This document shows positions 14,261 to 32,329 of a DNA stretch of 33,634 nt, piece after piece. Both the position numbers and the translations under genes were made by a program. Numbering within the stretch: position 1 is the first letter of the stretch; the number at the start of each line of letters is the position of its first letter. The notes below the pieces were generated by a model, which had not been told where the DNA came from, made no database searches, and saw nothing but the letters and a program-made list of their open reading frames with translations. The DNA is from Candidatus Schekmanbacteria bacterium (GTDB taxonomy: Bacteria > SZUA-182), in the NCBI GenBank assembly GCA_016235675.1, contig JACRJN010000135.1, positions 1 to 33,634 on the forward strand, in the 5' to 3' direction.

Positions 14261-14301
14261 AAGATGGGTAAAATTGTCGATTTTGTGGTTTAGAATTCAT
14301 T

Positions 14302-14440: not shown

Positions 14441-14487
14441 AGTTTAAGTGAACAGTATTGATTTAAGTGGAGGGTGTAAGGTAAGCC

Positions 14488-14748: not shown

Positions 14749-14758
14749 ACCCAATACC

Positions 14759-14859
14759 GTTCACTTAAGACGTAGCGCAGGGCTTCTATCCCTGCTTATG
14801 GGGTGGCTTTGGCGGGAACGAAGGAGCAGACCTAAAGGTCTGCGCTACGTTAAGTGAAC
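14759..14859. repeat. 100-bp palindromic element, copy 1
   Basis: The ends GTTCACTTAA and TTAAGTGAAC pair, followed inward by GTAGCGCAG with CTGCGCTAC. Inside are a second stem (CAGGG with CCCTG) and an AGACCT-AAAGGTCT stem. A nearly identical copy lies at 32841-32940, 18 kb away. The element is too small to encode a protein. Confidence 0.85.
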
Positions 14860-14910
14860 ATAAGGGATTAAAACTAGTTTAAGGTAATAAAATAAGGAGG
14901 GTTATTTGAA

Positions 14911-16092
14911 ATGATCGGTTGTAGTAAGCTGTTGTGCGGGACGGCGACGGTGGCGGAAGTCATGCGTTTGCAACGGGACAGCGAGAAGTTGCCCGCTCAT
15001 ATGTTGCAATTTTCGGCGGATATGCGTCCGCTGGTGGTTTGGAATATGACCAACCGCTGTAATCTGCGCTGCCTGCACTGTTATATAAACGCCGAGGATA
15101 AGAGTTATCATGACGAGTTGACCAACCAAGAAGCGCGGGCGTTTATTGAGGATATTTGCGCGATGAAAGCCCCGGTGCTGTTGTTTTCCGGCGGCGAGCC
15201 GTTAATCCATAAAGATATTTTCGAGTTGGGAAGTTATGCCAAAAAATTGGGCACCCGTCCGGTCATTTCTTCCAACGGCACCTTGATCGACACCACTATC
15301 GCCCGTCAAATCAAAGAGACCGGTTTTGAATATGTGGGAATCAGCATCGACGGGGTGGAAGAAACCCACGATCATTTTCGCCAGAAGAAGGGCTGCTTCA
15401 AGGCTGCCATCAAGGGGATTAAAAACTGTTTGGATGCCGGAGTGAAAGCCGGTGTGCGCATTACCGTCAACAAGCATAATTACAAGGACTTGCCGGCGGT
15501 ATTGGATATTGTGGAAAATGAGGGCATCCCCCGTTTTTGTATGTATCATCTGGTTTATTCCGGCCGCGGTAAAGAAATGGTGCAGGATGATTTGACCCAT
15601 GAGCAGTCACGCTGGGTGATGAGCGTCTTGATTGACAAGACACTTGACTGGAATAAGCGTGATGTCAAGGCCGAAATTCTGACCACCGATAATCATGCCG
15701 ACGGCGTGTATTTGCTGCAATATGTTCGCAAACATATGCCGGAACGGGAACAGGAAGTGGTGGAGTTGTTGAAGCTGCACGGCGGCTGTTCCGCAGGCGG
15801 CAAGTTTTCCAATGTCGATCCCAGAGGCAACGTTCATCCCTGCCAGTTCTGGAGCCATGTAACCCTGGGCAATATCCGCCAGACCAAATTCAGCCAGATT
15901 TGGACGGATATGAACGCCAATCCGTTGATAGACAAGCTGCGCAACATGCAGCAACATGTCAAAGGGCGCTGCGGCATCTGCAATTACAAGCACTTGTGCG
16001 GCGGCTGCCGAATCAGAGCCGAAGTGGTGAATAAAGATACCTGGGGGCAAGACCCGGCTTGCTATTTGACCGATGCGGAGATTAGCGGTTAG
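14911..16092 (+). CDS. ahbC: Radical SAM 12,18-didecarboxysiroheme deacetylase AhbC
   Basis: This 393-residue radical SAM enzyme of the alternative heme pathway removes two acetate side chains from 12,18-didecarboxysiroheme, giving iron-coproporphyrin III. The N-terminus MIGCSKLLCGTATVAEVMR is characteristic of AhbC. The radical SAM cysteines are at 50, 54 and 57 (CNLRCLHC). A C-terminal SPASM-like cysteine set follows (GGCSAGGKFSNVDPRG, CGICNYKHLCGGC). AAGGAGG precedes the ATG by a spacing that fits this start. AhbD is encoded 1.6 kb downstream, separated by a small module and hemB. Confidence 0.92.
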   Translation: MIGCSKLLCGTATVAEVMRLQRDSEKLPAHMLQFSADMRPLVVWNMTNRCNLRCLHCYINAEDKSYHDELTNQEARAFIEDICAMKAPVLLFSGGEPLIHKDIFELGSYAKKLGTRPVISSNGTLIDTTIARQIKETGFEYVGISIDGVEETHDHFRQKKGCFKAAIKGIKNCLDAGVKAGVRITVNKHNYKDLPAVLDIVENEGIPRFCMYHLVYSGRGKEMVQDDLTHEQSRWVMSVLIDKTLDWNKRDVKAEILTTDNHADGVYLLQYVRKHMPEREQEVVELLKLHGGCSAGGKFSNVDPRGNVHPCQFWSHVTLGNIRQTKFSQIWTDMNANPLIDKLRNMQQHVKGRCGICNYKHLCGGCRIRAEVVNKDTWGQDPACYLTDAEISG

Positions 16093-16134
16093 CGTTTTGA
16101 TATTGTTCTAACATAGAGAGTCCGGATATAAAAT

Positions 16135-16431
16135 ATGATAACGGCGTCTTCGGTAAACCGTGTTTCTATTAGATTGACTCACGAGAGATGGTATCATATT
16201 GTTGAAAACCATGATGATTTGGCTGGTTATTTTTACGAAGTTTTAGAGACGATAGAAACGCCGGGGTTTATAGTGAGAGGTAGCAACGGAGCATTAAAGG
16301 CAGTCAGAAATATGGGTGATATGTGGCTGGTTGTTGTATACAAAGAAATTTCTAAAAGAGATGGATTTGTTATAACGGCTTATCTGTTGGATAAGAGGCC
16401 GAAGAGGGAAATAATATGGCGACGGCATTAA
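16135..16431 (+). CDS. Small BECR-like toxin candidate
   Basis: This 98-residue protein has the order RLTHERWYHIVENHDDLAGY, a middle VRGSNGALKAVRN, then WLVVVYKE and FVITAYLLDKRP. The strand-rich end and conserved histidines resemble barnase-EndoU-ColicinE5/D-RelE type small toxins. It overlaps the DUF2283 gene by 16 bases, an arrangement seen for such pairs. Toxicity is inferred. Confidence 0.6.
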   Translation: MITASSVNRVSIRLTHERWYHIVENHDDLAGYFYEVLETIETPGFIVRGSNGALKAVRNMGDMWLVVVYKEISKRDGFVITAYLLDKRPKREIIWRRH

Positions 16432-16658
16432 AAAGCAAGGATTTGGTTAATAATTGCCTGAGTTTGGTATCGGGTTTTATAAAACTGCCGCTTGAACATA
16501 TGTGGGTGGATTATGACCGGGAGGCCGATGTTTTATATTTGAGTTTTAGGAAGCCGCAAAGAGCTACTAAAACTATAGAGACTGATGATGATATTTTAAT
16601 CAGAAAAGATAACAATAAAATTGTTGGGATTACTGTTTTAAATGCAAGCTGTAGATAA
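16416..16658 (+). CDS. DUF2283 family protein, likely partner of the upstream gene
   Basis: The last 55 residues (VDYDREADVLYLSF, then DDDILIRKDNNKIVGITVL) are a clear DUF2283 domain. The N-terminal 25 residues are a helical extension. The translated start overlaps the upstream gene. DUF2283 proteins often follow small toxin-like genes, so an antitoxin role is likely but unproven. Confidence 0.78.
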   Translation: MATALKSKDLVNNCLSLVSGFIKLPLEHMWVDYDREADVLYLSFRKPQRATKTIETDDDILIRKDNNKIVGITVLNASCR

Positions 16659-16725
16659 TAGTGCAATCTGATTTTATTACCTATTAGGGCAATCTCAAAG
16701 CTTGCTTATGTAAAAGGACTAAAAA

Positions 16726-17703
16726 ATGTTTTTTCCCACTTATCGCCCGCGCCGACTGCGGGAGACCCCGAATTTACGGCGTTTGGTGCGGGAAACCAGA
16801 TTGTCGGTGGAAAATTTGGTTTATCCGGTTTTTGTCACCCATGGAACCAATGTAAAGCGGGAAATTCCCTCCATGCCGGGTAATTATCATTATTCCGTCG
16901 ATACTTTGGTGAACGAGGCGCGGGAGGTAGCGGCCCTAGGGGTACCGGCGCTTTTGCTGTTCGGGTTGCCCGACAAAAAGGATGAAGCCGGATCGGAAGG
17001 CTATGCCAAAAGCGGGATTGTGCAGCGCTCCTTGCGTGCCCTGAAAAAGGCTAAACCGGACTTGCTTTTGATAACCGATGTCTGCCTTTGCGAATACACC
17101 AGTCACGGGCATTGCGGGGTATTGACCAAGGACGGGAAAATCGATAACGACGCCACTTTGCCGGTATTGGCGCAAATAGCCTTGTCTCATGCCGAAGCCG
17201 GGGCGGATATGGTGGCGCCCTCTGATATGATGGACGGGCGGGTGGACGCCATCCGTCAGTCTTTAGATATGAACGGCCATAAAAACATCCCCATCATGTC
17301 CTATGCGGCTAAATATGCCTCCGGGTTTTACGGCCCTTTCAGAGAGGCGGCGCTTTCCACCCCGCAATCCGGGGATCGCTGCTCCCATCAAATGGATCCG
17401 GCCAATAGCCTGGAAGCGTTAAGGGAAGTAGCGCTGGATGTGGACGAGGGGGCGGATATTATCATGGTCAAACCGGCGCTGGCCTATCTGGACATAATCG
17501 CCAAAGTGAAGGAAGAATTTAATCTGCCGGTGGCGGCCTATAACGTCAGCGGCGAATACTCCATGGTCAAGGCTGCGGCTGCCAACGGCTGGATCGACGG
17601 GGAACGGGTGATGATGGAAATCCTGACCGGCATCAAGCGCGCCGGAGCCGATATTATCATTACCTATCATGCCAAAGCAGCGGCCAAGGTTTTAGGGAGG
17701 TAA
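16726..17703 (+). CDS. hemB: Delta-aminolevulinic acid dehydratase HemB (zinc type)
   Basis: This 325-residue enzyme condenses two 5-aminolevulinate molecules to porphobilinogen. The active-site lysines are at 196 (AAKYASGF) and 249 (MVKPALAY). Cysteines 120, 122 and 130 ([11 protein letters not shown]) form the catalytic zinc site, so it is the zinc-dependent type. SDMMDGRV and [12 protein letters not shown] are family signatures. AAAAGGA precedes the ATG. ahbD begins three bases after the stop. Confidence 0.97.
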
Positions 17704-17706
17704 ATA

Positions 17707-18828
17707 GTGCATTCACATCACGGTCATCCGATAAATAAAGACGAAGCGTTGCCGCGTTTGATCGCCTGGGAATTAACACGTTCCTGCAACCTGGGTTGCT
17801 TGCATTGCCGCGGTTCTGCAACATTGGATCGTGCCGGTGACGAATTAAGCTTGGCAGAGGCTTACAAATTAATCGATCAGATTACGGAACTGGCTAAACC
17901 GATATTAATCATGAGCGGCGGCGAACCGTTGGTGCGTCCGGATGTGTTGGAGATCGCCCAATATGGAACTAATAAAGGCTTGCGGGTGGTTTTAGCCACC
18001 AACGGCACCTTGTTGACACAACCTTTGGCGGAACGTCTCAAGGAATGCGGGATTCAACGGGTGAGTATCAGCATCGACGGGGCAAACGCCCAATCTCATG
18101 ACGCATTTCGCGGTATGCCCGGTTCTTTTGACCTGGCATTATGCGGCATCGAAATATTAAAGAAGGCCGGGCTGAGTTTCCAGGTAAATACAACCATCAC
18201 CCGGCGCAATTTAAAGGAAATTCCGGCCATTGCCGACTTAGGGATTAATCTGGGAGCGGCGGCGATTCATATTTTCCTGCTGGTGCCGACCGGACGCGGC
18301 AAGGAAATAGAGGGGGATGAAATCAGCCCTCAGGAATATGAAGATGTTTTAAATTGGTTTTACGACAAGCAGAAGGAATTCAAAGAGATAACTCTCAAAG
18401 CCACCTGTGCCCCCCATTATTTCCGGATCATGCGTCAGCGCGCTAAAGCGGAGGGGATTAAGATCACTCCCCAAACCCACGGAATGGAAGCTATGACTAA
18501 GGGTTGTCTGGGCGGGTCAGCCTTTTGTTTTATATCCTACAAAGGCGATGTCGCCCCCTGCGGATATTTACCGGCCTGGGCGGGCAATGTTCGCAAGCAG
18601 CATTTTGCGGACATTTGGAAAAATTCTAAAGTATTCCAGGATTTGCGCAACCCCGATATTTTAGGCGGCAAATGCGGACATTGCGAATACCGGCGTGTTT
18701 GTTCCGGATGCAGGGCCAGAGCCTATGCCCGTTATGGGGATTATCTGGCTGAAGAGCCGTATTGCATCTATCAGCCGGGGAGCAAAGGTGGAAAAAGTGG
18801 CGGGAGAAATAATTTGTCCGCAATGTAA
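17707..18828 (+). CDS. ahbD: Radical SAM heme b synthase AhbD
   Basis: This 373-residue radical SAM enzyme oxidatively decarboxylates two propionates of iron-coproporphyrin III to vinyls, producing heme b without oxygen. The radical SAM cysteines are at 27, 31 and 34 (CNLGCLHC). The short histidine-rich N-terminus and [12 protein letters not shown] match AhbD. Cysteine sets near the C-terminus ([22 protein letters not shown]) are SPASM-like auxiliary cluster ligands. The start is GTG, with GGGAGG overlapping the hemB stop. This close coupling to hemB supports the pathway call. Confidence 0.92.
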
Positions 18829-19485: not shown

Positions 19486-20556
19486 ATGTCCAATGGGGCC
19501 TCAAGAGAAGGTAGAAAGTGGTTGATTCTGGGTATCCTCTTCTTTGGTCTTATGGCAATGTATTCGGTTCTTCCTCGTGCGGCTGCTGCGGCAGACGAAG
19601 AAAACTGTTTAATGTGTCATAAGCACCGTGGAATGGGAAGAATTGATGCGCAGGGTAACAGAAAGATTTACCATGTTAACGAAGAAACCTTTGCCAAATC
19701 GGTGCATGGTCGTGTGCCCTGTCGCGGTTGCCATGTCGGCATTGCAGAAATTCCCCACAAAGTAATCACTCAGAAAGTTGATTGCGGCGTGCAATGCCAT
19801 AAGAAAGAACCTTCCACGGGACGTGACTTCTCTCACCGCGGCGTTTATAAAAACTACAAAAGAGGTGTTCACGGTACCGATCTAAGAAACCCGGAGCCGG
19901 GCAAGCCGGTATGTAAATACTGCCATCAAAATCCCCTCTATACCAGGACTTCCATAGGCCGGGAAAAACCCATCGAAAGAGTTCTGGCCAGATGTCAAGC
20001 CTGCCATACCGAAAAAGAATGGGCACATACCTTTTATATGCACGTTGAACACCGTTTAATGAAGAGAACTATGCGCGGTCGTTTACAAGTGGTGGAATTG
20101 TGCGCCAGTTGCCATGCCGATAAAGATTTAATGAAGAGCAAGGGACTTTCCAAGAAAGCCATCAACGCAGTTGATACTTATAAGATGACCTATCATTGGA
20201 AGGCTTTGGAACTGGGCAGAACGGATACGGCTGATTGCCTTGATTGCCATACCTACTATGAGCCGTATAACCCCGATAATATCCATCTGATTTTAAGAAC
20301 CAGCGACCCTGAAGCGTCCATCCATCCGAATAATAAAGGGAAGATTTGCGGTCAGGATTTTTGTCATGACGGAAAGAATGCCGCAGGACCCAAAGCGGGG
20401 CCGAACCTGGCTAATTTAAATATGCATATGGATTGGGAAGACCCCGAACATATAGTAGAGTTTATTACAGCCCAAATGTTCTTTGTGTTGACATTCGGCA
20501 CCTTAGCCTTCTTGTTCATTTGGATGTTCCTGGAATTGTTGCGCCGACTTTTTTAA
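19486..20556 (+). CDS. Membrane-anchored octaheme c-type cytochrome
   Basis: This 356-residue exported cytochrome has six CXXCH sites (first at C41) plus one CX3CH (CGVQCH) and one CX4CH (CGQDFCH), giving up to eight hemes. A signal peptide ends in an alanine run near residue 36. A C-terminal hydrophobic helix (about 326-352) anchors it, with a positive tail, so the heme domain faces the periplasm. AAGGAGG sits well before the ATG. It is the first gene of the 12-gene unit and may pass electrons between the membrane and the periplasmic cytochromes. I recognise no named family. Confidence 0.9.
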   Translation: MSNGASREGRKWLILGILFFGLMAMYSVLPRAAAAADEENCLMCHKHRGMGRIDAQGNRKIYHVNEETFAKSVHGRVPCRGCHVGIAEIPHKVITQKVDCGVQCHKKEPSTGRDFSHRGVYKNYKRGVHGTDLRNPEPGKPVCKYCHQNPLYTRTSIGREKPIERVLARCQACHTEKEWAHTFYMHVEHRLMKRTMRGRLQVVELCASCHADKDLMKSKGLSKKAINAVDTYKMTYHWKALELGRTDTADCLDCHTYYEPYNPDNIHLILRTSDPEASIHPNNKGKICGQDFCHDGKNAAGPKAGPNLANLNMHMDWEDPEHIVEFITAQMFFVLTFGTLAFLFIWMFLELLRRLF

Positions 20557-20623: not shown

Positions 20624-21505
20624 ATGAAGAGAAAAAAGGTGCTGCTGGGAGCAGGGGCGATTATGTTTTTCGTCATGTTGCTCTTGGGTGTCCTTAAAGT
20701 AGTCGGTATAACAGATACGCCGGAAATTAATGCGTCTGAAAAAGCGGAACCCGCTGGCGGTGAAAAGACTGAATTAAAACTGGATACGATTCATAAAGAT
20801 ACGGATTGGTATATTAAGCATGCTCACTTTCATGAATGGATTGAAGAGGAAATGCCTAAAGACAATAACCCGGCCATGTGCCTGGTCTGCCATGGCAATA
20901 ATCCTCATGCCAATGCCAAAATGACCAGATCGATATTGAATATGCACACTGTTTTCTGTGCTTGTGAAACGTGCCATTTCAGATTCGATCCCAAAGAAAA
21001 AGGAAAATACGGTTTCAGATGGTATGATGGTTCTGAGGCAATTCAGGCTTCACAACGTCATTATGGTACTAATTACGATGCGGCAACCGGTCGGGTTTTA
21101 ATGGAAAATACGCTGGTTAACTTCAAAATAACCCCCTTCCTGATGTGGGAAGGTAAATATTATATGGTCAATTTGCGGCAGGATGCACCTGAAGCTAAAG
21201 AATATTTATCCAAAAAGGGTACATATTCTCCTGAAGAACAAGCCGCCATCAAAACCAAGATTCATGCCAGTATTGAGACCAAAGGTCGTGAATGCAGCGA
21301 ATGTCATTCCGTAAACACAGTAATTCCCTTTAAGAAACTAGGTTTTGATGATGAACGGGTAAAGGATTTAACCGGTTTGAATATCGTGGGGATGGTTGAT
21401 AAATATCAGAAATTCTATATTCCGGATATTTTCAAACAAAAGAGGATGTATGACGAATCTGCTCTTGAAGAAACTGTAGGATCAGCAGAAAGATCAGAAA
21501 AGTGA
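20624..21505 (+). CDS. Membrane-anchored triheme c-type cytochrome
   Basis: This 293-residue protein has an N-terminal membrane helix (about residues 5-29) with no clear cleavage site, and three CXXCH sites (CLVCH, CETCH, CSECH). The first two lie about 30 residues apart, and the third follows a roughly 110-residue heme-free stretch. Many extra histidines (DWYIKHAHFHEW) could be axial ligands. It has a strong GGAGGTGGG ribosome site. The stop overlaps the start of the NHL gene, so the two are coupled. No named family is recognised. Confidence 0.85.
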   Translation: MKRKKVLLGAGAIMFFVMLLLGVLKVVGITDTPEINASEKAEPAGGEKTELKLDTIHKDTDWYIKHAHFHEWIEEEMPKDNNPAMCLVCHGNNPHANAKMTRSILNMHTVFCACETCHFRFDPKEKGKYGFRWYDGSEAIQASQRHYGTNYDAATGRVLMENTLVNFKITPFLMWEGKYYMVNLRQDAPEAKEYLSKKGTYSPEEQAAIKTKIHASIETKGRECSECHSVNTVIPFKKLGFDDERVKDLTGLNIVGMVDKYQKFYIPDIFKQKRMYDESALEETVGSAERSEK

Positions 21506-22470
21506 TGTTAGATTGTGTAACAAATAAAATAAAGTTAGCCCCCTGGATTACCTTGGGGCTAACTTTAGCCCTCTGTGCGAACGCCTCTGCTTTCCCTGTC
21601 AGGTTGGTTACTGATTCATTCGAACTTGAAGGCGGGCCTGGATTGAAGTTTCATGAGCCTACAGATGTAGTTGTGGGGAAAAATAGTCGCATATATGTGT
21701 TGGATGGTGTAAATCACCGGGTTCAGGTTTTTGAAAGCAATGGTAACTTTCTATTCAAATTCGGTGAATTCGGCAGCGATGAAGGTTCCCTTAATATGCC
21801 TATGGGATTGGGTGCCGACAGAGCCGGAAATATTTATGTAGCAGATACCAGAAATCATCGGGTACAAGTTTTCGATAGTAACGGTAAATATCTGAAAAAG
21901 ATCGAACTCCCTCGTAAAAAGGGGGATGAAGCCCTACCTGATCCGACCGATGTTTTGGTTGTAAGCCCTCCGGATGAAGATGAAAAAATATGGATAACGG
22001 ATAATGATAATCATCGAATTCATATTTTTGATAAAGATACCTTAAAATTGGAAACAACAGTCGGCAGACATGGATTCGATGAGGAAGGCAAATTTCGCTA
22101 TCCGCATAATATGACGGTTGACAGCAGTTATAATGTCTACGTGGTAGATGTGTTGAATACGCGGGTGCAGGTATTTACCAGAGCTGGGAAATTTTTAAGA
22201 GAGATCGGCGAATGGGGGATAAAAGAAGGCACTTTTTTCCGTCCCAAAGGGGTTGCGGTAGACGCTCATGACCGGGTGTATGTCAGCGACGGTTATATGG
22301 GAGTTGTGCAGGTTTTTACGAAAGACGGCGAATACGTCGGTGTAATTGCCAAAGACAAGAATAAAGAATTAAAATTTAATGTTCCTATCAGTATTTATAT
22401 AGACGGCACAAATAGATTGTATGTAGTACAAGAATTAGGTCATAAATTAAGTGTATTTAAACTGCCATAA
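21505..22470 (+). CDS. Exported six-bladed NHL-repeat propeller
   Basis: This 321-residue protein has a signal peptide ending ANASA at about 30. Six NHL-type blades follow (for example PTDVVVGKNSRIYVLDGVNH, then NIYVADTRNHRVQVF). The middle blade has an acidic insert (SPPDEDEK). The ATG at 21505 shares one base with the preceding stop, and a GTG at 21502 is equally possible. NHL propellers are protein-binding scaffolds and recur in multiheme gene clusters, where they probably position cytochromes. No catalytic residues are visible. Confidence 0.9.
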   Translation: MLDCVTNKIKLAPWITLGLTLALCANASAFPVRLVTDSFELEGGPGLKFHEPTDVVVGKNSRIYVLDGVNHRVQVFESNGNFLFKFGEFGSDEGSLNMPMGLGADRAGNIYVADTRNHRVQVFDSNGKYLKKIELPRKKGDEALPDPTDVLVVSPPDEDEKIWITDNDNHRIHIFDKDTLKLETTVGRHGFDEEGKFRYPHNMTVDSSYNVYVVDVLNTRVQVFTRAGKFLREIGEWGIKEGTFFRPKGVAVDAHDRVYVSDGYMGVVQVFTKDGEYVGVIAKDKNKELKFNVPISIYIDGTNRLYVVQELGHKLSVFKLP

Positions 22471-22513
22471 TTTTGGTGAAGATGTGGTTTTCTTACAATC
22501 AAAATTGCTAGGT

Positions 22514-25500
22514 ATGATGCAGAGAAATAAGTTTATAAAATTTATTATATTATTTTTGGTAAGCCAATTATTTCAAATATCTGGTATTGAGGCGTCGGTA
22601 ATTTCCTCTAAACGCGAATGTGCTAACTGTCATATTTGCTGGATGGATGATTTTGTTATGCCGGGAAATAAAATCTTCGTAGACCGGGTTATCCGTGAGG
22701 TATCTGTTATGATTGCCGGAAGATTGGGTGTTGTCAGTACTGAAGAGATATGTTATACATGCCATGACGGATCAGTGAGAGATTCACGGGATCAAACGTG
22801 GATGCCCGGCGGCCACCCCGTTTATGTTATCCCTTCCGAAAATGTACAAGTCCCGAAAACCTTCCCATTGAATAAAGACGGTAAAATATATTGCGGAACA
22901 TGCCACAGCGCGCACGGCGTCGATTGGGGTAAGAAACAAGAAGAGCAGATGCTGGAGCGTACTGTATTCTTACGGTTTGAAAATCCCAATTCTTTCATAT
23001 GTAAGCAGTGTCATGTTAATAAAGTTAGAAGCAAGGCGCACAATAATCATCCTGTCGATGTAACCACTATAAAAATACCTCAGGAAGTATATGATCTCGG
23101 CGGAAAAACCGGCTTTATGAAAGATCAGGTTATATGTCAATCCTGTCATAGGGTTCATGGGGCAAAGGGCGGTTATAAATTATTAATAAAATCTATAAAG
23201 AATTCAGAGTTATGCGGAATCTGCCATAAAGATAAATACGTCGATGATCGGGCTGAAGCGGAAAAAAGAGGTACACATCCGGTAAATATAGTACCGAAAT
23301 ATGCACAAATCTCCCAGGAAGCGAAAAATCGCGGCTCCAGGGAAGGCAGTGACGGGAAAATAATTTGTTTGTCCTGTCATAAAATTCATAACGCGCCGGA
23401 AGGGACAAAAATATTGCTTGCCAGCAACAGCGGGTCCAATCTCTGTCGCTTATGTCATCAGGATAAATACGATCAAATATCCAGCACCAAACATGATTTA
23501 CGGGAAACGGCACCTAACGAGAAAAATATCTGGGGGCAGTCACCGGAAAGCGGAGGGCTTTGCAGCGCCTGTCATTTGCCTCACGGCGGACAAGGGGCCA
23601 AGATGTGGGCCAGAAAACCGGCCAATAACAACGAACCGATTGCCAGATTATGTTTAAGCTGTCATTCTGAAGGTGAAGTGGCCAAGAAAAAACAGTTGGG
23701 AAAGATTTCCCATCCGGTTGGAGTTTCCATAACCAAGGTTGACGGAGAAACATCACTGCCGCTATGGAGCGAGGAAGGGGTAAAAATACTTGATGGGAAA
23801 AAGGGTAATGTAAATTGCGCCAGTTGCCATAATGTTCACCGGTGGGATGCTAACTCCATGGAGAAAAAAGATATTGCTAAAGTCGAAGGTGATGCTGCCA
23901 ATAGTTTTCTGCGCATAAAAAATGATGTTGGTTCGCCGCTTTGTAATGACTGCCATGAAGATAAAAGTTATATTGAAAATAGTGACCATGATATGTCCAT
24001 GATGGCTTATAAACATCCGCGTTCTCATTGTATTCAAATGTTGGGTGAGGATCAAAGTGAAATGTTAAAACTTCCCAAAGAGACTGTACATAAGCTTTTG
24101 GGAAAAAGCGAAGGTAAAACGGGAATTTGTGGTACATGTCATACGCCGCATAATGCCTTATATTACAGATTGTGGAGCAGAGAGATTGGGCCGGGGGCGA
24201 ATGCAGGTGAAAAGTTATGCTTTACCTGTCATGCAGCAGGTCGGGTTGCTGAAGTAAAACAACTGGGGCAATATACACATCCGACCGGCGCAAGCATACT
24301 AAATTTGGGGATAACGCCAACAACCAATTTACCACTCTTTGATGATGAGCTAAACAGGGTAAAAAATGGTAAAGTAATGTGTTTTTCTTGCCATAATCCT
24401 CACAGATGGGATCCGAATAAAAAAGAAAAAGGCCCGGGTGTAAAAACGGAAGGCGACGCCAGTAACAGCTTTTTACGGATCGCGGCAAACGATAATAATT
24501 TTGCTATCTGCGCCAGTTGTCACGGCGATAAATGGCCGATAAAAAATACCAAGCATGATCTGGCGCTCTCACGTCCGAAAGAAAAAAATCTACGCGGTCA
24601 AACTACTTCAGAAGTCGGTGTCTGCGGAGCCTGTCATATTGTACATAACGCGGCCTATAAATATCGTTTGTGGAACAGGCCGCTAGGTCCCGGAGACGAT
24701 CCGGTTGCTAAACTTTGTCAGAGTTGCCATAGTGACGGTCGTTGTGCGGAGGTAAAACAGATTGGCAAAAATACCCATCCGTTAGGAAAAGATATTCGCG
24801 GCGCCCTTCAAGGGAAGGCGGAAGCTCCGAATTTCCCCACATATGATGATGATCTGGCCAAAGTCTCCCCTGGAAAAGTTTATTGTTCATCCTGTCATAA
24901 TCTCCATCAGTGGGACGCGGAGAAAGCGGAACAAGGTGATGGGAAGCTGGCAGAAGGCGATATGACAAATAGCTTCCTGCGTGCCAAAAATACTGACGGG
25001 TATGCGTTTTGTATTAAATGTCATCCAAAGAAAGATACGGTTGTGGGGACAGATCATGATATGCGGGTTTCGGCGCCGAACGAAAAGAATTATTTTGGTG
25101 TAAGCATCTCTAAGGGCGGGGTATGCAGTGCTTGCCATGTTGTGCATAATACGCTCAACGATGTCAAGTTATGGGCACGGGAATTGGGGCCCGGTACCGA
25201 CGGTATTTCGAAACTGTGCAGGAGCTGCCACAACGAAAACGGCCCTGCGAAAACAAAACTGATTTCATTCGGTAAGGATTCGCACCCGATAAATGCCGAT
25301 ATTCGTAAAGCAGAGGGCAGTACCTCCTTCCCGCTCTTTAATTTTGCCGGTTACCGGGATAAAAACGGCAAAGTATATTGTGCATCCTGCCATGATCCGC
25401 ATTTATGGGATGCAGCGCAGGATAAAGGCGGTCCCGGTGTACCTGTGGAAGGGGATCAGTCAAACAGTTTCTTAAGAAAAAGAAATCTTCCCAGTCCCGA

Positions 25501-26263
25501 TTTTTGTGGTGATTGTCATCCCGAAAAGGCGTTGGTTGAAGGAACGGATCATGACATGAATATAACCGCGCCTGCCGCAAAAAATTTAGCGGGCCGAACG
25601 GTCAAGCAGGATGGTATCTGTAGTGCCTGCCATATTGTCCATAATGGATATAATGAAGTACGTTTATGGGCCAGAAAATGGGGGCCGCCGTATATTCAGG
25701 ACTGGAATAAATTATTAGGGGTGGAAAGCGATCGTGCAGTTCAATTTTGCACCAGTTGTCATTCGGATAACGAGCCGGCCCAGGTCAAACAGCCAAAGCA
25801 CGGCTTGCATCCCTATCCTTTCCTGGTGGGTATCAGAAAAGCCTTTGACACTCAATGGGTGCCATCTTATCAACCGTTAAAATACGTCTACAAAACATTG
25901 AATACAGTTATGACGAATCGTATGATGGATGATAATACCAGGCCGGCTTATCCACCATATACAGACAGCGGTGAAATATCCTTGGACAACGGCGATTTGA
26001 CCTGCCCAACCTGCCATAATCCGCATAAATGGTATCAAAGGGAGTTTAAGAAAGGAACCGGAGTCAATGAAGAGGGAAGAACCAATACCAGCTTTTTGCG
26101 CAAAGATGTATTGTATGAGTTTTGTATAGACTGTCACTCTTACGATGCCTTGTACCGGATGAAATATTTCCACTCATCACGGACGCGGGAAAAATTGGAT
26201 CCGCCGACGAAATATGATGAGATAAGATTGATGTTAAAAAATGCCGGTGCCACCAAAAAATAA
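22514..26263 (+). CDS. 28-heme c-type cytochrome with five tandem tetraheme modules
   Basis: This 1249-residue exported protein has 28 CXXCH motifs. After a signal peptide (KFIKFIILFLVSQLFQ), the N-terminal part holds hemes 1-8 in a looser doubled-CXXCH arrangement. Hemes 9-28 form five modules starting at base positions 23561, 24128, 24623, 25124 and 25619. Each module has four CXXCH sites and four extra histidines. Conserved elements are a CSACHxxHN start, LWxR with GPG, CHNxHxWD, EGD and NSFLR, and a final HDM. The last module is diverged and extended and replaces HDM with YFH. An upstream start at 22451 lies inside the NHL gene. I prefer ATG at 22514. It is probably a periplasmic or surface electron conduit. 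Confidence 0.9.
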   Translation: MMQRNKFIKFIILFLVSQLFQISGIEASVISSKRECANCHICWMDDFVMPGNKIFVDRVIREVSVMIAGRLGVVSTEEICYTCHDGSVRDSRDQTWMPGGHPVYVIPSENVQVPKTFPLNKDGKIYCGTCHSAHGVDWGKKQEEQMLERTVFLRFENPNSFICKQCHVNKVRSKAHNNHPVDVTTIKIPQEVYDLGGKTGFMKDQVICQSCHRVHGAKGGYKLLIKSIKNSELCGICHKDKYVDDRAEAEKRGTHPVNIVPKYAQISQEAKNRGSREGSDGKIICLSCHKIHNAPEGTKILLASNSGSNLCRLCHQDKYDQISSTKHDLRETAPNEKNIWGQSPESGGLCSACHLPHGGQGAKMWARKPANNNEPIARLCLSCHSEGEVAKKKQLGKISHPVGVSITKVDGETSLPLWSEEGVKILDGKKGNVNCASCHNVHRWDANSMEKKDIAKVEGDAANSFLRIKNDVGSPLCNDCHEDKSYIENSDHDMSMMAYKHPRSHCIQMLGEDQSEMLKLPKETVHKLLGKSEGKTGICGTCHTPHNALYYRLWSREIGPGANAGEKLCFTCHAAGRVAEVKQLGQYTHPTGASILNLGITPTTNLPLFDDELNRVKNGKVMCFSCHNPHRWDPNKKEKGPGVKTEGDASNSFLRIAANDNNFAICASCHGDKWPIKNTKHDLALSRPKEKNLRGQTTSEVGVCGACHIVHNAAYKYRLWNRPLGPGDDPVAKLCQSCHSDGRCAEVKQIGKNTHPLGKDIRGALQGKAEAPNFPTYDDDLAKVSPGKVYCSSCHNLHQWDAEKAEQGDGKLAEGDMTNSFLRAKNTDGYAFCIKCHPKKDTVVGTDHDMRVSAPNEKNYFGVSISKGGVCSACHVVHNTLNDVKLWARELGPGTDGISKLCRSCHNENGPAKTKLISFGKDSHPINADIRKAEGSTSFPLFNFAGYRDKNGKVYCASCHDPHLWDAAQDKGGPGVPVEGDQSNSFLRKRNLPSPDFCGDCHPEKALVEGTDHDMNITAPAAKNLAGRTVKQDGICSACHIVHNGYNEVRLWARKWGPPYIQDWNKLLGVESDRAVQFCTSCHSDNEPAQVKQPKHGLHPYPFLVGIRKAFDTQWVPSYQPLKYVYKTLNTVMTNRMMDDNTRPAYPPYTDSGEISLDNGDLTCPTCHNPHKWYQREFKKGTGVNEEGRTNTSFLRKDVLYEFCIDCHSYDALYRMKYFHSSRTREKLDPPTKYDEIRLMLKNAGATKK
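23561..26263 (+). repeat. Five in-frame repeats of about 165 codons (tetraheme modules)
   Basis: Spacing between module starts is 567, 495, 501 and 495 bases, so modules 2 to 4 are nearly the same length. Identity is clear at protein level and much weaker at DNA level, so the duplications are old. Confidence 0.85.
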
Positions 26264-26317: not shown

Positions 26318-26518
26318 ATGACTTTAGGTAAATTTCGGTATATTCCAAAAGGGCGTTATTTCCCTCCCCACACCGATATTAAAACAGAGGGGGATGTAAG
26401 AAGGGAAAGAAATGTAACGTTGATATTTATTGTTTTTTGCGTAGTTATCGCAATCGGTGTTCCATTCCTGGTTAATTTGGGGAAAGCGCTTTTTGCCATT
26501 CAACCAGTAATTTATTAA
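26318..26518 (+). CDS. Small single-span membrane protein A (66 aa)
   Basis: The N-terminal 33 residues are basic and polar (FRYIPKGRYFPPHTD, then RRERN). One hydrophobic helix (about 35-58) and a short tail follow. By the positive-inside rule the N-terminus is cytoplasmic. AAGGAGG at 26302-26308 gives nine-base spacing to 26318, so the in-frame ATG at 26309, which abuts it, is unlikely to be used. No family recognised. Its position between the giant cytochrome and protein B suggests a small subunit of the complex. Confidence 0.8.
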   Translation: MTLGKFRYIPKGRYFPPHTDIKTEGDVRRERNVTLIFIVFCVVIAIGVPFLVNLGKALFAIQPVIY

Positions 26519-26544: not shown

Positions 26545-26790
26545 ATGAATACATCAACCGAAAAGGAATTAGTTTTTGATCCAACCAGTGCAACGGCAAA
26601 TAAAACCTTAACTGGGGAATTGGCTACGGCTGAAAAAATTGCGGCATATCATCTCGATATACCACCTTTGGGATTCAAAGGTAAATTAATAACCATCATT
26701 GAATTGATTGGCTTAATTTATGTAATGTATTTAACCGGTGATTTTATGGTAGGTCATATAACTCATATGATACATCTGTTTAGTCACTAA
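26545..26790 (+). CDS. Small single-span membrane protein B with histidine cluster (81 aa)
   Basis: The N-terminal 45 residues are soluble. One membrane helix (about 46-66, KLITIIELIGLIYVMYLTGD) is followed by a short C-terminal stretch with four histidines in ten residues (HITHMIHLFSH). These could ligate heme or metal or bind quinone at the outer face. GGGAGGG precedes the ATG. It probably partners protein A. I recognise no family. Confidence 0.78.
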   Translation: MNTSTEKELVFDPTSATANKTLTGELATAEKIAAYHLDIPPLGFKGKLITIIELIGLIYVMYLTGDFMVGHITHMIHLFSH

Positions 26791-26846: not shown

Positions 26847-27902
26847 ATGGATAAACGGCATAAAGTTCAAAAAGCGTTTTTGGCCGGCTTTATGTTGATA
26901 TTGCTGCTTAATGGTTGCGGCAAAGCGTCTCATGAAGCGGAAGAGCCGAAAAAAGCTGTAAAAAAGAGTAAAATCGATTTGGTAAGGCGCACTAAATTGA
27001 GTAAAGAAAAGGAGTCCGGCGGAACAATCATAGGTGGAGAGGTAAAAGAAAATACTGTTTTACAATTAGTTAAAAGTCCGTATATTGTAAATCGGGATTT
27101 GACGATATTGCCGGATATAAAATTAACCATAGAGCCTGGAGTAGTGGTTAGAGTGGCGCCCTATACCTCGATAGTAGTGCGAGGGAATTTTCAGGCAATA
27201 GGAGCAAAGGACAAAAAAATTAAATTTGTAGCATCGAATGAAGAAGAACTATGGGACGGTTTAAGATTTATGGATGAAAGCTTCGATTATAACAGCGATG
27301 AATTAATTGAGGGCAATGGATGTATAGTGGAAAACTGTCAGTTCGAAAAAGCCAAAACCGCGATTATCTGTGATAAATCCTCTCCGGTGATACGGAATAA
27401 TGTATTTAAAAATAATGAAGAAGCGGTAAAGTGTCGTAATCATTCGATGGGTGCCTTAATTGCCAACAATATAATAGAGGATAACAATATCGGAATAACC
27501 TGTGAAGAATATTCAAACCCCGAAATAATTCATAACACTATTATCGGTGCGGAAGGCAGAGGGGTAAGTTGTACTATTTATTCATCCCCTAATGTGACTT
27601 ATAATATCATTTTTGGAAAAGGTGAGTCATGGTGGAAAGGGATAATTTGCCAGGATAACTCTGCACCGAAAATAACTCATAATAATATATATTCTAACGG
27701 TGGATATAATTTTTACTATGTTAAAATGAAGCCGGGTGAAGGTACTCCGGAAATCGATGCCCAAAATAATTGGTGGGGCTTGAGTGATAAAGAAGAAATC
27801 GCAAAAAGGATAAACGATAAGGGGGACAAAGGCGATTTAGGGGAGGTAAAATTTGAACCGTTCTTAAACAGCAAAGTCGGAAATGCCGGGCATGAAGCAT
27901 AG
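26847..27902 (+). CDS. Right-handed beta-helix lipoprotein
   Basis: This 351-residue lipoprotein is lipidated at cysteine 24 (LLNGC), followed by a lysine-rich linker. From about residue 70 it shows parallel beta-helix rungs with repeated short strands and asparagine-rich turns (VIRNNVFKNNEEAV, NIIEDNNIGITCEE, NTIIGAEGRGVSC). It ends with a NosD-like NNWWG motif. Such folds bind polysaccharides or proteins. No catalytic acids are evident, so a scaffold or surface-contact role is likelier. Confidence 0.82.
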   Translation: MDKRHKVQKAFLAGFMLILLLNGCGKASHEAEEPKKAVKKSKIDLVRRTKLSKEKESGGTIIGGEVKENTVLQLVKSPYIVNRDLTILPDIKLTIEPGVVVRVAPYTSIVVRGNFQAIGAKDKKIKFVASNEEELWDGLRFMDESFDYNSDELIEGNGCIVENCQFEKAKTAIICDKSSPVIRNNVFKNNEEAVKCRNHSMGALIANNIIEDNNIGITCEEYSNPEIIHNTIIGAEGRGVSCTIYSSPNVTYNIIFGKGESWWKGIICQDNSAPKITHNNIYSNGGYNFYYVKMKPGEGTPEIDAQNNWWGLSDKEEIAKRINDKGDKGDLGEVKFEPFLNSKVGNAGHEA

Positions 27903-27962
27903 TAGCTCCCGATAAATAAACTAATTATCCAATAAGGTCAGTCAGAGAGGAGGAACCTTTAA

Positions 27963-29261
27963 ATGTTAGGTAATTTGCGTACATGGGTTCGCGAGAATAA
28001 ACCTAAGGCGATATTGTTTGGTGTAATAGGTCTGATAGTTTTTGGTTTCCTGAATTTTGAGCTAATCCATTTTTCATCGAGTCCCCCGTTTTGTCGTATG
28101 GCTTGTCACAATATGGTGCTGGAAGTCGATCAATGGGCGAAATCCAGTCATGGTAAAAGACATATTGATTGCGTAAGCTGTCATTATCGCGAAGGGTTGG
28201 TTGGTTACATGACGGCCAAAGTTTTAGCCATGAAAGATTTAGTGAATTCAATCACCGGGCAAATGGGATTGGAGATGCATGATCCCCATGAACAGGAAGA
28301 ATTAGAACATCATTATGAGTGGCCGGCTCCCGGTACTTTAGTGTTGACACCGGATTTAATTGAGTCGGAAAAAAAGATGGATCATATAATATTGCCTCAA
28401 TATATCCATAATGTGGAAGTCGATTTAGGGATGGGGCCCTGCAAAAAAGTCGATGAACATGGGAATTATCGGATACAGTTACATCGACACAGCTATCTTT
28501 GGAACAATGTAGAGATGAATTGCCGGGGATGTCATTCAAAATTAGGCAACCGCGGCCGGCATTCAAAAAAGAATATCGCGGATTTTGTGATAAAGAACGC
28601 CTTGATGAGTTTTAAGGGGCAGTCGGAAAAAAGAAGAAAAGGTATTATTGTTCCTCACGCTATACATTTGGACAAGGGAATAGCTTGTATTGACTGCCAT
28701 GCGGAAATTGTTCACGGCCCGGATGAATTCAGAGAAGAGAATGGCGCGGTAATGCCGAGAATGGAAATCTGCTTTAGATGTCATAACGATAGACGTGCAC
28801 CGAGAGATTGTACATTATGTCATGAAATGCAGAAGAAAATGAACCTGGGTATTGAAGGTGCAGGAGTAGAGGATACCCCGAATTATATGTATCCCAACAG
28901 TGCTACCTGTACCGATTGCCATTTACAGGAAAATCAATGGAAAATGTCTCCAAAGGTTTGCTCGGATTGTCACGGCGATGAGGGTCATGGCGCAACAATG
29001 ATTGAGTGGCAAACCAGTACCAAGGAGTTGTTAACACAGGTCGAGCCGTTGGTGGACGAAGTGGGTAAAGGCATCGAGCAGGCAAAACAACGCGGTAAAA
29101 ATGTCGGTGCTGCAGAGGAATTATATAACGATGCTTTATATAATTATGAATTTGTAGTAAGTGATGGCAGTAAAGGTGCACATAATGTCGATTATGCCGC
29201 AGCTTTGTTGAATTCAGCCAAAGAAAAACTGCAAAACGCCAGTGAGCGTTTGATAGAGTAG
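27963..29261 (+). CDS. NapC/NirT-type membrane octaheme cytochrome with C-terminal helical domain
   Basis: This 432-residue protein has an N-terminal membrane helix (about 17-36) followed closely by CRMACHNM at 44-51. The helix-then-heme-then-methionine layout is that of NapC/NrfH-like quinol dehydrogenases. The first heme site is CX3CH. Seven CXXCH sites follow: CVSCH, CRGCH, CIDCH, CFRCH, CTLCH, CTDCH and CSDCH. The last 90 residues are heme-free and helical (LVDEVGKGIEQAKQRGK). It is the probable entry point for electrons from menaquinol into the cytochrome chain. AGAGAGGAGG precedes the ATG. Confidence 0.9.
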   Translation: MLGNLRTWVRENKPKAILFGVIGLIVFGFLNFELIHFSSSPPFCRMACHNMVLEVDQWAKSSHGKRHIDCVSCHYREGLVGYMTAKVLAMKDLVNSITGQMGLEMHDPHEQEELEHHYEWPAPGTLVLTPDLIESEKKMDHIILPQYIHNVEVDLGMGPCKKVDEHGNYRIQLHRHSYLWNNVEMNCRGCHSKLGNRGRHSKKNIADFVIKNALMSFKGQSEKRRKGIIVPHAIHLDKGIACIDCHAEIVHGPDEFREENGAVMPRMEICFRCHNDRRAPRDCTLCHEMQKKMNLGIEGAGVEDTPNYMYPNSATCTDCHLQENQWKMSPKVCSDCHGDEGHGATMIEWQTSTKELLTQVEPLVDEVGKGIEQAKQRGKNVGAAEELYNDALYNYEFVVSDGSKGAHNVDYAAALLNSAKEKLQNASERLIE

Positions 29262-29276
29262 TTAAACAAGATAATC

Positions 29277-29306
29277 ATTCATGGGGAGTTGATACTCCCC
29301 ATGAAT
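29277..29306 (+). promoter_or_regulatory. Perfect 13-bp hairpin after the NapC-like gene
   Basis: ATTCATGGGGAGT (29277-29289) and ACTCCCCATGAAT (29294-29306) pair exactly around a TGAT loop, 16 bases after the stop. No T-run follows, so it may be an RNA stability or processing site within the operon transcript. It would hide the candidate start ATG at 29301. Confidence 0.7.
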
Positions 29307-29330
29307 GAATTATCGTTAGCGGTGGAGCAA

Positions 29331-29819
29331 ATGCTGCGGAATAAATATATTAAATATTTAATCATAAATACGGCGGTTTTATTTGGAATACTGTATATAA
29401 ATATAAATTATAATAGCGCCATAGCTGTTGAAGATAAAGAGATTATACAAAAAAAACAAAAAGAATTAAGAACGGTAGCAGAAAAATACGCTAAAGCCTA
29501 TGCTAAAAGAAATTATAAAGAGATGTATGAACTATTAATTCCGGTATATAAGAAACGTGTTCCGCTCTGGGAATTTAAGGATTTTGTGACCTATCCCGGT
29601 GTAACGGATGGATATATTCAAGTGGAAGTTGTTGATGTTAGCATTTTACCTAAAGGTGAATTTAAGTTTGGTAAAGTAATGCTCAAGATTGTAATTACTG
29701 AAAACCAAAAATATAAAACAACCGGGGAATCGGTAAAAGTGGAAAGAGAAAAATGGGAATTTCAGGACTGGGTCGAAATAAAGGGGAAATGGTTAAAAAT
29801 TGAAAAATATGACAGCTAA
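29331..29819 (+). CDS. Exported NTF2-like small protein
   Basis: Three in-frame starts exist (TTG 29289, ATG 29301, ATG 29331). I prefer 29331, which gives a 162-residue protein with a proper signal peptide (NKYIKYLIINTAVLFGIL) and avoids the hairpin covering the other two. GGTGGAG lies close upstream. The mature part begins with a helical stretch (AEKYAKAYAKRNYKEMYELL), followed by strands ending in WVEIKGKWLKIEKY. This resembles NTF2/SnoaL-like or lumazine-binding small proteins. Function unknown. Confidence 0.7.
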   Translation: MLRNKYIKYLIINTAVLFGILYININYNSAIAVEDKEIIQKKQKELRTVAEKYAKAYAKRNYKEMYELLIPVYKKRVPLWEFKDFVTYPGVTDGYIQVEVVDVSILPKGEFKFGKVMLKIVITENQKYKTTGESVKVEREKWEFQDWVEIKGKWLKIEKYDS

Positions 29820-29840
29820 ACATAAAAAGGAGGATTAAAA

Positions 29841-29927
29841 ATGTTGGCGATAGCAGAAGTATTATTAATATTATTAGGTTTTTCTTTTCTAATGTTAGTT
29901 GTATATGTAGTGTTAGGTAAAATCTAG
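29841..29927 (+). CDS. 28-residue membrane peptide
   Basis: A start with an exact AAAAAGGAGG site at a normal spacing gives the peptide MLAIAEVLLILLGFSFLMLV plus VYVVLGKI. It is almost entirely one hydrophobic helix. The gene sits between the NTF2-like and TPR genes of the same operon, on the same strand. It may be a small subunit that stabilises the membrane part of the cytochrome complex. Too short for most gene callers. Confidence 0.6.
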   Translation: MLAIAEVLLILLGFSFLMLVVYVVLGKI

Positions 29928-29998
29928 GCGGCGAAATAAAAATTAAAAAAAGGTTAAAAAAATTTAAATCTTGTAGGCAACTATGAGGAGATGTGTCT

Positions 29999-31282
29999 AT
30001 GCCTAAAAAAAGATTAATGCTGCTATGTTTATATTATTCATTAGCGGCTGGTATAGCTTTATTGCCGGTTAATGTTATGGCCGGTAATTTGGAAGATGCC
30101 GAAAATCTTTATCGCAAAGGTGAATATGAAGAGTCTTTAAAAAAAGCCAATGATGCTTTGAAAGAAGACGAGAAAAATGTCAAAGCGCACAAAGTAGCGA
30201 TAAGAAATTATAATAAATTGAACAGAATAGGTGCTGCATTGACAAAGTATACCAAATTGGTAATAGAAAAAAAGAATGAGCCGGTTTATCATTTTGCAGT
30301 TGCCTTTATATATGATTTAAAAAATAATACCGATCGTGCAATAGAAGGGTATGAGAAGGCATTGAATTTAAATTCAAAATTGCCTTTGGCGAATTATAAT
30401 TTAGCCTGGATTTATGAAGATAAAGGCGATTTAAGTAAAGCTATAGATTATTATCAAAAAGAGCTAAGCAATAATTCGAATGATGTCGACACTTATAAAA
30501 ATTTGTCTAAACTCTATTTAAAAATGAAGCATTACGATAAAGCGTTAGAAACAGCTCAAAGTCTTCTGGCGGCCGGTGCAAACAATAGAGTTGCCTATGA
30601 TTTAATCGGTGAAGCGTATTATGGAATGGGCGATAATGACCGAGCCTTGGATGAATGGAAAAAGACACTGAATATTGACCAAAAAGACGTTCAGGTTGGG
30701 ATTTATAATGTACGCGGTGTAATATTTAATGCCAAAGGCTATTATAATAGCGCTATGAAGGAATTCAGGAAGGGGATTGAAAACGGGCCTAATCCGAGAC
30801 TCTATTATAATTTAGGTGAGGCATATATGAGTAAGGTGCAGGAGAAGACCTTCGGCAAGAAAAATGACAAGTGGTATAATGAAGCCGTAAAAGAATTTCA
30901 GAATGCAATCCAAGCTAATCCGAAATTCGGCGAAGCGTATGTCGGTTTAGGTGAAGCATATTTCGGGATGGGGATGAATGATCAAGGGATCGCCCAATAT
31001 GAAAAATATGTCGAAATAAGTCCCAGAGATGTTGACGGTTTGAACAGATTAGGAAATGCCTATAAAAGGTTGGGTCGTTATAAAGATGCCGTGGATAGGT
31101 TTACCCAGGCATTGGATGTAGATAATAATAATGCGGAGGCATACAGAAATTTAGGGTATGCTTATTATTATCAAGGTTTGCAGGATGCGGCCAAAGCACA
31201 ATGGGAAAAATCATTAAAGCTTGAACCGAATCAGCCTCTTTTGCGCGAACAGATAAGCAGTGCCTTTAAAAAATTCAATTAA
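29999..31282 (+). CDS. Exported TPR-repeat protein
   Basis: This protein (427 residues) has a signal peptide ending VNVMAG (residue 29). About ten tetratricopeptide repeats fill the mature part (for example LPLANYNLAWIYEDKGDLSK, AEAYRNLGYAYYYQGLQDAA). GAGGAG precedes the ATG at 29999, while the GTG at 29993 is too close. Periplasmic TPR proteins scaffold multi-protein assemblies, here most likely the cytochrome complex. There is no catalytic domain. Confidence 0.9.
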   Translation: MPKKRLMLLCLYYSLAAGIALLPVNVMAGNLEDAENLYRKGEYEESLKKANDALKEDEKNVKAHKVAIRNYNKLNRIGAALTKYTKLVIEKKNEPVYHFAVAFIYDLKNNTDRAIEGYEKALNLNSKLPLANYNLAWIYEDKGDLSKAIDYYQKELSNNSNDVDTYKNLSKLYLKMKHYDKALETAQSLLAAGANNRVAYDLIGEAYYGMGDNDRALDEWKKTLNIDQKDVQVGIYNVRGVIFNAKGYYNSAMKEFRKGIENGPNPRLYYNLGEAYMSKVQEKTFGKKNDKWYNEAVKEFQNAIQANPKFGEAYVGLGEAYFGMGMNDQGIAQYEKYVEISPRDVDGLNRLGNAYKRLGRYKDAVDRFTQALDVDNNNAEAYRNLGYAYYYQGLQDAAKAQWEKSLKLEPNQPLLREQISSAFKKFN

Positions 31283-31318
31283 AAGAGAAATTAAAGTCAT
31301 CACAAGGGTAGAATAGGT

Positions 31319-32329
31319 TTGAGTGTGAAAAAAGGTCAAGTCATAAAATTAATATTAGTTATAATATTGCTCTTGAGTTTACCGGCTTATGTCTATAGTT
31401 TGCGCGTTCCGGATCCGGAATTAGCTAAAAAAGAGAATCCACACTGGAACGGTAAATCATGTTTAATCTGTCATGAGGAAGAGCCGAAAAAGGATCAAAA
31501 GGCAACTTTTAAATTTGGCGCTGATTTTGTAAAATTATGCAATAGTTGTCATGATACCAGTTTGTCACGCGTTGAGGAACATCTGGTAGATGTTAAAATC
31601 AATACCGATAATGCCAGATTTAAAATGCCTCCCGCCGATTTCCCATTACCTGACGGTAAAATCAGTTGTATAACCTGTCATGATCTAAGATTGCAGGAAC
31701 AAAATAATTTGAAAGTAAAAGAAAATAATCCGATGTTTTTGCGTCGGTATCCTTCAGAAATTATGCAGACCTTTGAGTGGGCTGATTCTGAAATAGATGA
31801 GCGGTATCGCCAATCCAGATATGCAATGTGTTTAAATTGTCATGTGCAAGGGTCGGTGATGGCTTGGAGTCCTCATAAAAATCAGATAAAGCCGAATGGG
31901 GAGATAAATGAAGAATTATGTTTATTCTGTCATTATGAGGTGCCGGATAGAAATATTATAGATCGAAAGGATTGGAAGATAAGAGGGTCGTTGCAGTTTC
32001 AATGTAAAAATTGTCATATGGGAAAAACCAGATTTCATCCTATTCGGGTAACTCATTATGGTAATGTACCGCCTCCCAAGATTGATAGTCAGATAAAATC
32101 TACCGAGCGGGTAATTGGTCTATTAATTCCCTTAGATAAAGACGAACAGGGGGTGGAAAGATTAACCTGTTCATCTTGCCACAACGCCCATCAAAAGGGT
32201 GTGTTGAAAAATGAAACCACAATAAAAGGCTCCGATGAGCCAAACCGTCTGCGTTTACCAGGATATAACATCTGTTTAGGCTGTCACGGTGAAGCAGTGG
32301 GGGTCCCGCAAGGCGGTAGGCCGTTTTAG
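31319..32329 (+). CDS. Periplasmic octaheme c-type cytochrome
   Basis: This 336-residue exported protein has eight CXXCH sites (CLICH, CNSCH, CITCH, CLNCH, CLFCH, CKNCH, CSSCH, CLGCH) and a signal peptide (VIKLILVIILLLSLPAYVYS). The first codon is TTG at 31319, with GTG at 31325 possible. No membrane helix is seen at the C-terminus, so it is probably soluble. It shares the doubled-CXXCH style of the giant cytochrome. It is the last gene of the unit, followed by a terminator. Confidence 0.87.
   Translation: MSVKKGQVIKLILVIILLLSLPAYVYSLRVPDPELAKKENPHWNGKSCLICHEEEPKKDQKATFKFGADFVKLCNSCHDTSLSRVEEHLVDVKINTDNARFKMPPADFPLPDGKISCITCHDLRLQEQNNLKVKENNPMFLRRYPSEIMQTFEWADSEIDERYRQSRYAMCLNCHVQGSVMAWSPHKNQIKPNGEINEELCLFCHYEVPDRNIIDRKDWKIRGSLQFQCKNCHMGKTRFHPIRVTHYGNVPPPKIDSQIKSTERVIGLLIPLDKDEQGVERLTCSSCHNAHQKGVLKNETTIKGSDEPNRLRLPGYNICLGCHGEAVGVPQGGRPF

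Follow-up and report, generated by a model that had tools for sequence, protein, structure and literature searches.

A single-chain cytochrome of fused OmcE-like modules

The 33,634-nucleotide contig JACRJN010000135.1 of a Candidatus Schekmanbacteria bacterium (assembly GCA_016235675.1), hereafter the window, encodes a c-type cytochrome with 28 heme-binding motifs at 22514-26263 on the forward strand. Five complete tetraheme modules resembling the filament protein OmcE, together with two half-modules and a diverged first module, appear to be fused here in one secreted chain with conserved caps at both ends. We propose that the protein is a finite, covalent, capped OmcE-type concatemer, which probably carries respiratory electrons from the inner membrane across the periplasm.

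The longest reading frame (22451-26263) begins with a GTG codon and overlaps the upstream gene. The ATG at 22514 is the better start because it gives a Sec-type signal peptide, and the resulting product comprises 1249 residues; residue numbers below nevertheless count from 22451. The predicted signal peptide (22514-22594) is a hydrophobic stretch past MMQRNK, probably cut near IEA/SV, and besides it neither a lipobox nor further membrane segments were found in the protein sequence. We counted 28 CXXCH motifs, in agreement with an earlier note on this DNA, and found no relaxed variants. The protein matches Paired_CXXCH_1 (PF09699, E 3.2e-57, 190 bits against a cut-off of 20.6) and TIGR01905 (113 bits against 25.2). 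The DmsE-family decahemes (TIGR03508) were rejected at 80.1 bits, far under the cut-off of 192.2, as was a c7-type wire like GSU1996, the triheme model TIGR04257 being absent among the matches at 0.001. An active enzyme was also considered, and no unusual heme motif was found.

Modules and histidine ligands

Hemes 9-28 form five tetraheme modules on the forward strand: M1 (23480-23974, residues 344-508, hemes 9-12), M2 (23975-24541, residues 509-697, hemes 13-16), M3 (24542-25042, residues 698-864, hemes 17-20), M4 (25043-25537, residues 865-1029, hemes 21-24), and M5 (25538-26260, residues 1030-1270, hemes 25-28). Their lengths are 165, 189, 167, 165, and about 196 residues, the last module having a tail in addition. 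Pairwise identity among the five is 35-49%, and still 28-44% with Cys and His left out of the count; the likeness of the modules thus exceeds that of their shared heme motifs. Each module follows the order HD, heme a (CXXCHxxH), heme b, HP, heme c (CXXCHxxH), heme d. The four recurring histidines outside the CXXCH motifs are those of HD(M/L), of the heme a CXXCHxxH (usually HN), of HP, and of the heme c CXXCHxxH (H-x-W). When 49 module pairs from relatives in many genomes were aligned, invariance was confined to the CXXCH residues, the above four histidines of each module, and a small number of further positions (P, FL/R). The alignments thus uphold the five modules with four CXXCH motifs and four recurring histidines each that had been read from the sequence, with the refinement that M2 has, past its HD, about 24 inserted residues that include three more histidines.

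From heme 3 onward, all odd-numbered hemes are of the CXXCHxxH type, and each even-numbered heme is followed by one conserved histidine. On this ligand pattern, hemes 5-6 and 7-8 (23051-23479, HP ... CXXCHxxH ... CXXCHxDK) are two half-modules and hemes 1-4 (22595-23050) a diverged module that makes up the N-terminal cap. The earlier note had set hemes 1-8 apart as a different cap; hemes 1-4 are indeed diverged, but hemes 3-8 follow the module pattern and do not point to a separate fold. Since heme 1 has the form CXXCHxxW, the 28 hemes are matched by only 27 conserved distal histidines in the complete protein. Ligation by these histidines would give 28 bis-histidine hemes, one possibly open: one of the hemes close to the N-terminus might have no distal ligand, be ligated by some other residue, or obtain its ligand from a partner protein.

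Likeness to OmcE

Searching the PDB with a profile of the five modules returned OmcE (7tfs) first, with an E-value of 5.2e-9, and the tetraheme cytochrome 9yuq second; OmcS (6ef8) was a weak match at E 0.12. The 49-row profile gave 2.3e-10 for OmcE and 4.6e-9 for 9yuq. Since multiheme proteins look alike through their heme motifs, we ran controls that keep these motifs. The true module profile scores OmcE at 50.5 bits, whereas 100 profiles with permuted non-Cys/His columns reached at most 29.6 bits, and 200 OmcE shuffles with fixed Cys and His at most 26.9 bits; the OmcE letters used in this test were stitched from the search alignments. The ligand order of the OmcE protomer is identical to that of the module, namely HD, heme 1 (CXXCHxxH), heme 2 (CXXCH), HP, heme 3 (CXXCHxxH), and heme 4 (CXXCH), right after which the chain stops. 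OmcE and the module also share the residues LW, LPLF, and FLR.

We modeled two consecutive modules, M3 being the first, by running AlphaFold on the alignment of the 49 module pairs. The model has a pLDDT of 88 and a pTM of 0.82, and its secondary structure repeats at about 167 residues; a prediction from one sequence of 829 residues reached a pLDDT of 31 and was not used. Among the 10 chains with which VIA-align compared the module model, OmcE ranked first and alone gave a strong structural match (Z 8.2, 2.8 Å root mean square deviation, 129 of 202 residues). The match, in which M4 is aligned with the OmcE protomer, places model residues 178-334 on OmcE residues 30-231, from HD to heme d, and the module boundaries agree. 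A repeated fold had been anticipated, and the predicted one matches the linear heme chain of OmcE. Judged by sequence likeness past the heme motifs, ligand order, boundaries, and modeled fold, the module is a member of the OmcE protomer family.

Junctions and chain ends

The consulted parts of two reports describe OmcE as an extracellular filament in which one heme is ligated by a histidine of the adjacent subunit (PMC9473688, PMC12954529), with a rise of 34 Å per four hemes (PMC12954529). Since the OmcE chain stops immediately past heme 4, the missing ligand must come from another chain. At every module junction of the 28-heme protein, HD comes 15-16 residues past heme d, which makes it the natural candidate for the crossing ligand of the OmcE type. 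The HD of each module would accordingly ligate the last heme of the preceding module, here within one chain.

Both ends of the protein differ from the junctions between the modules. Heme 1 is not preceded by HD, and the Trp of its CXXCHxxW (22619-22642) is invariant in the class and kept in most relatives. At the other end, a conserved histidine (H1241, 26171-26173) lies 16 residues past heme 28 in the motif C.DCH..(E/D)AL.R.K..H, so that M5 carries a C-terminal cap that would supply its own last histidine. The cap motifs recur in relatives with 18 to 38 hemes, which bears out the end caps proposed in the earlier note. Lacking HD before heme 1 and having its own histidine after heme 28, the chain would be closed at both ends to polymerization of the OmcE type. 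OmcE is a single module that polymerizes non-covalently through histidines crossing between subunits, whereas the 28-heme protein contains fused modules between two caps and is not assembled from single-module protomers.

These ends also bear on an alternative in which the secreted protein builds extracellular nanowires by joining end to end or with a 35-heme paralogue, the repeat unit being larger than that of OmcE. Even though OmcE itself forms an extracellular filament and the 28-heme protein has a signal peptide but no membrane anchor, the joining mode of OmcE is absent at both ends in nearly all relatives with 18 to 38 hemes, and the gene is grouped with inner-membrane cytochromes in most relatives. 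We therefore consider such nanowires unlikely.

The 35-heme paralogue has the same five modules and about eight extra C-terminal hemes, and it occurs in the genome of the window (L038:1462-5886, G000:C154) and in a relative (L039:4307-8836). Other relatives of about 2100-2500 residues with 35-37 hemes have no end caps (L127:5727-13307, L128:4375-11658, L129:1-6444) and adjoin 7- or 8-heme genes, possibly representing a surface-exposed subfamily. The uncapped 35- to 37-heme forms (the paralogues in G000 and G003 and second copies in G369, G229, and G497) look like other subfamilies and were left out of the comparison.

Relatives and module number

All eight class members with a complete gene encode 28 hemes. 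A full-length scan of genome contigs gave two close relatives from metagenome-assembled genomes and one weak match. The relatives in one bacterial family have 28 or 24 hemes, one tetraheme step apart; this family includes G018, which we take from its gene content to be Desulfurobacterium thermolithotrophum, and G191, presumably Thermovibrio ammonificans. In a wider sample, 24 of 386 genomes carry relatives, and the capped forms have 18, 24, 28, 30, 33, 34, or 38 hemes. The module number thus varies in relatives as had been expected, and relatives from several lineages retain the caps and differ in the middle.

The 38-heme relative (L126:8278-13197) contains a recent tandem duplication of ten hemes, or two and a half modules, which was found by comparing the two blocks with each other: their protein identity is 77%, and across roughly 1 kb their DNA identity is 84.6%. 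Duplication does therefore lengthen the chain in relatives. In the gene of the window, only short repeats with 61-84% likeness are left in the DNA, so its duplications are not recent. The module tree groups modules by position rather than by protein (12 label changes, compared with 34.6 in shuffles), with the last module in one clade (97/89 support), and the grouping by position holds with the 35-heme paralogue too. Because modules group by position across species, the duplications in the protein of the window must be ancient, and the tree and the lack of close DNA repeats together rule out a recent expansion of this gene. The earlier suggestion of growth by module duplication is consequently supported by the 38-heme relative, but not as ongoing growth in the 28-heme protein, whose heme number is the same in all class members with a complete gene.

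Many hemes per protein and a flexible heme number across relatives could suit a mainly periplasmic electron store (capacitor) or a general redox buffer, with no fixed end-to-end path. However, module order, ligand spacing, and both end caps are strictly conserved, suggesting that the line and its ends matter, and we regard a mere store as quite improbable.

Operon and neighborhood

The gene directly upstream of the cytochrome encodes a secreted six-bladed NHL propeller (21502-22470, PF01436, 2.7e-29). It is preceded by genes for a triheme c-type cytochrome with an N-terminal membrane anchor (20624-21505) and a hexaheme c-type cytochrome with a C-terminal membrane helix (19486-20556), both of which hold the same position in relatives. 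Downstream follow a single-helix membrane protein of 66 residues (26318-26518), which is conserved at this place in relatives, and a membrane protein of 81 residues (26545-26790), resembling one whose gene, in a relative, lies between those for b561 and the triheme cytochrome. All these genes lie on the forward strand. Relatives in the class show the order hexaheme cytochrome with C-terminal helix, cytochrome b561, membrane-anchored triheme cytochrome, NHL propeller, and 28-heme protein. Desulfurobacteriaceae share this order, with b561 or a gene of its size, as do a third family with 28 hemes and a fourth with 34, and the NHL gene comes before the wire gene in almost every capped form.

A published porin-cytochrome cluster (PMC4245776) is the immediate upstream neighbor of the operon in Desulfurobacteriaceae. 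Together with the similarly large cytochromes of PCC3 clusters, this neighbor would favor a role of the 28-heme protein in an outer-membrane conduit or as a cell-surface cytochrome. Against such a role stand the lack of a lipoprotein signal and of any porin recognized in the window. Among the open reading frames of the window we recognized neither a PCC3 porin nor the conserved inner-membrane protein of these clusters, although the PCC3 porins themselves were not searched for. A 0-heme gene near the operon in one relative, considered as a porin candidate, proved to encode a propeller. A place in a conduit or at the surface thus seems unlikely to us, much like the nanowires above.

Proposed function

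The operon context, with the anchored hexaheme and triheme cytochromes, b561 in relatives, and the NHL propeller, suggests electron uptake from the quinol pool and transport across the periplasm. Electrons would enter from the quinol pool through an inner-membrane c/b561/c complex, hop along the 28 hemes, which are expected from the module to form a single line over the full length, and leave at the far end towards the outer membrane, the direction being the one we infer from this context. It is highly likely that the protein works as an electron wire, whereas the chances that this wire forms a bridge through the periplasm are about even. Using the rise of OmcE, we computed a length of about 24 nm for 28 hemes and 20 nm for 24 hemes; about 24 nm is near the width of the Gram-negative periplasm. 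More tentatively, and with somewhat less than even confidence, we suggest that the widespread capped OmcE concatemers could be fixed-length periplasm-spanning wires that dock on the c/b561/c quinol complex via the NHL propeller, the module number setting their reach. If this is true, a solid path across the periplasm replaces diffusing shuttle cytochromes.

Several observations weigh against the proposed periplasmic concatemer. With the rise of OmcE, the varying module counts of relatives correspond to 15 to 32 nm, a wide spread that falls short of establishing a strict match with the width of the periplasm. The b561 gene is absent from its usual place in the window (between 20556 and 20624), and a 57% identical copy resides on another contig (G000:C54:8788-9558), away from other cytochrome genes. 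A homologue of the Desulfurobacterium-type porin was not found in the genome of the window, which likewise speaks against an outer-membrane conduit. As for the structure, the heme positions in the 28-heme protein are deduced from OmcE homology and not from coordinates, and HD is assigned as the crossing histidine by its position and not read off the OmcE structure. VIA-align compared only 10 chains, and Foldseek returned no significant match for the AlphaFold module model, only a meaningless one. The silence of Foldseek is in line with the consulted part of PMC9473688, which remarks that secondary structure is scarce in OmcE and that only OmcE and close homologues are returned by fold servers.

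Comparison with known systems

GSU1996-type dodecaheme cytochromes, with triheme c7 domains in a row, are single-chain linear heme wires of fused repeats. They differ from the 28-heme protein in the module, which is a triheme c7 unit (TIGR04257) and not a tetraheme OmcE unit. The large PCC3 cytochromes likewise have very many hemes, a low residue-to-heme ratio, and repeats, and have been proposed as a molecular wire; PCC3 has a porin and a membrane protein of a different, five-helix type as its defining features, and the consulted part of the report shows no link to OmcE (PMC5566968). In the porin-cytochrome clusters with Dester_0351 and Theam_0871, the hexaheme membrane cytochrome is apparently encoded by the first gene of the operon whose last gene specifies the 28- or 24-heme protein; the consulted part of the report mentions neither the large cytochrome nor the NHL protein (PMC4245776), and the window has no adjacent porin cluster. 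The available text of PMC6896113 counts a 28-heme cytochrome in cytochrome gene clusters of Deferribacter autotrophicus and D. desulfuricans, cytochrome-rich clusters with a b561-annotated gene. This protein, reported there as a count with no module analysis or OmcE link and likened here by description, possibly belongs to the same family as the 28-heme relatives in G254, G391, and G517.

Heme-rich wires of fused repeats (GSU1996, PCC3) and the 28-heme count in a Deferribacter cluster (PMC6896113) were therefore already known. Our literature search, whose coverage left out most subscription papers, found no fused OmcE modules or OmcE-like families. As far as this search reaches, the new elements are the OmcE link, a capped concatemer joined covalently, and caps that stay fixed around a variable middle. 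The cytochrome nanowires known so far consist of polymerized but unlinked subunits, and the electron route across the periplasm is unsettled; according to the consulted part of a review, a Geobacter mutant without shuttle cytochromes still feeds electrodes (PMC12307469). A natural single-chain wire with a solved module, defined ends, and a conserved operon would make the question of how electrons cross the periplasm testable: it could be expressed, its length adjusted by whole modules, and its location in the envelope determined. In evolution, it would also form a simple bridge from a monomeric filament subunit to long multiheme proteins made of a single chain.

Other genes of the window

Just upstream of the cytochrome operon, at 12746-18828, the window contains genes of the siroheme-dependent heme pathway, encoding uroporphyrinogen methyltransferase/synthase, AhbC-like and AhbD radical SAM proteins, and HemB. 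Downstream, at 26847-32329, lie genes for a beta-helix protein, a 7-heme NapC/NrfH-like membrane cytochrome, a 176-residue protein, a TPR protein, and an 8-heme cytochrome. In two relatives (L028 and L031), genes of matching size and heme count follow the cytochrome gene as a block.

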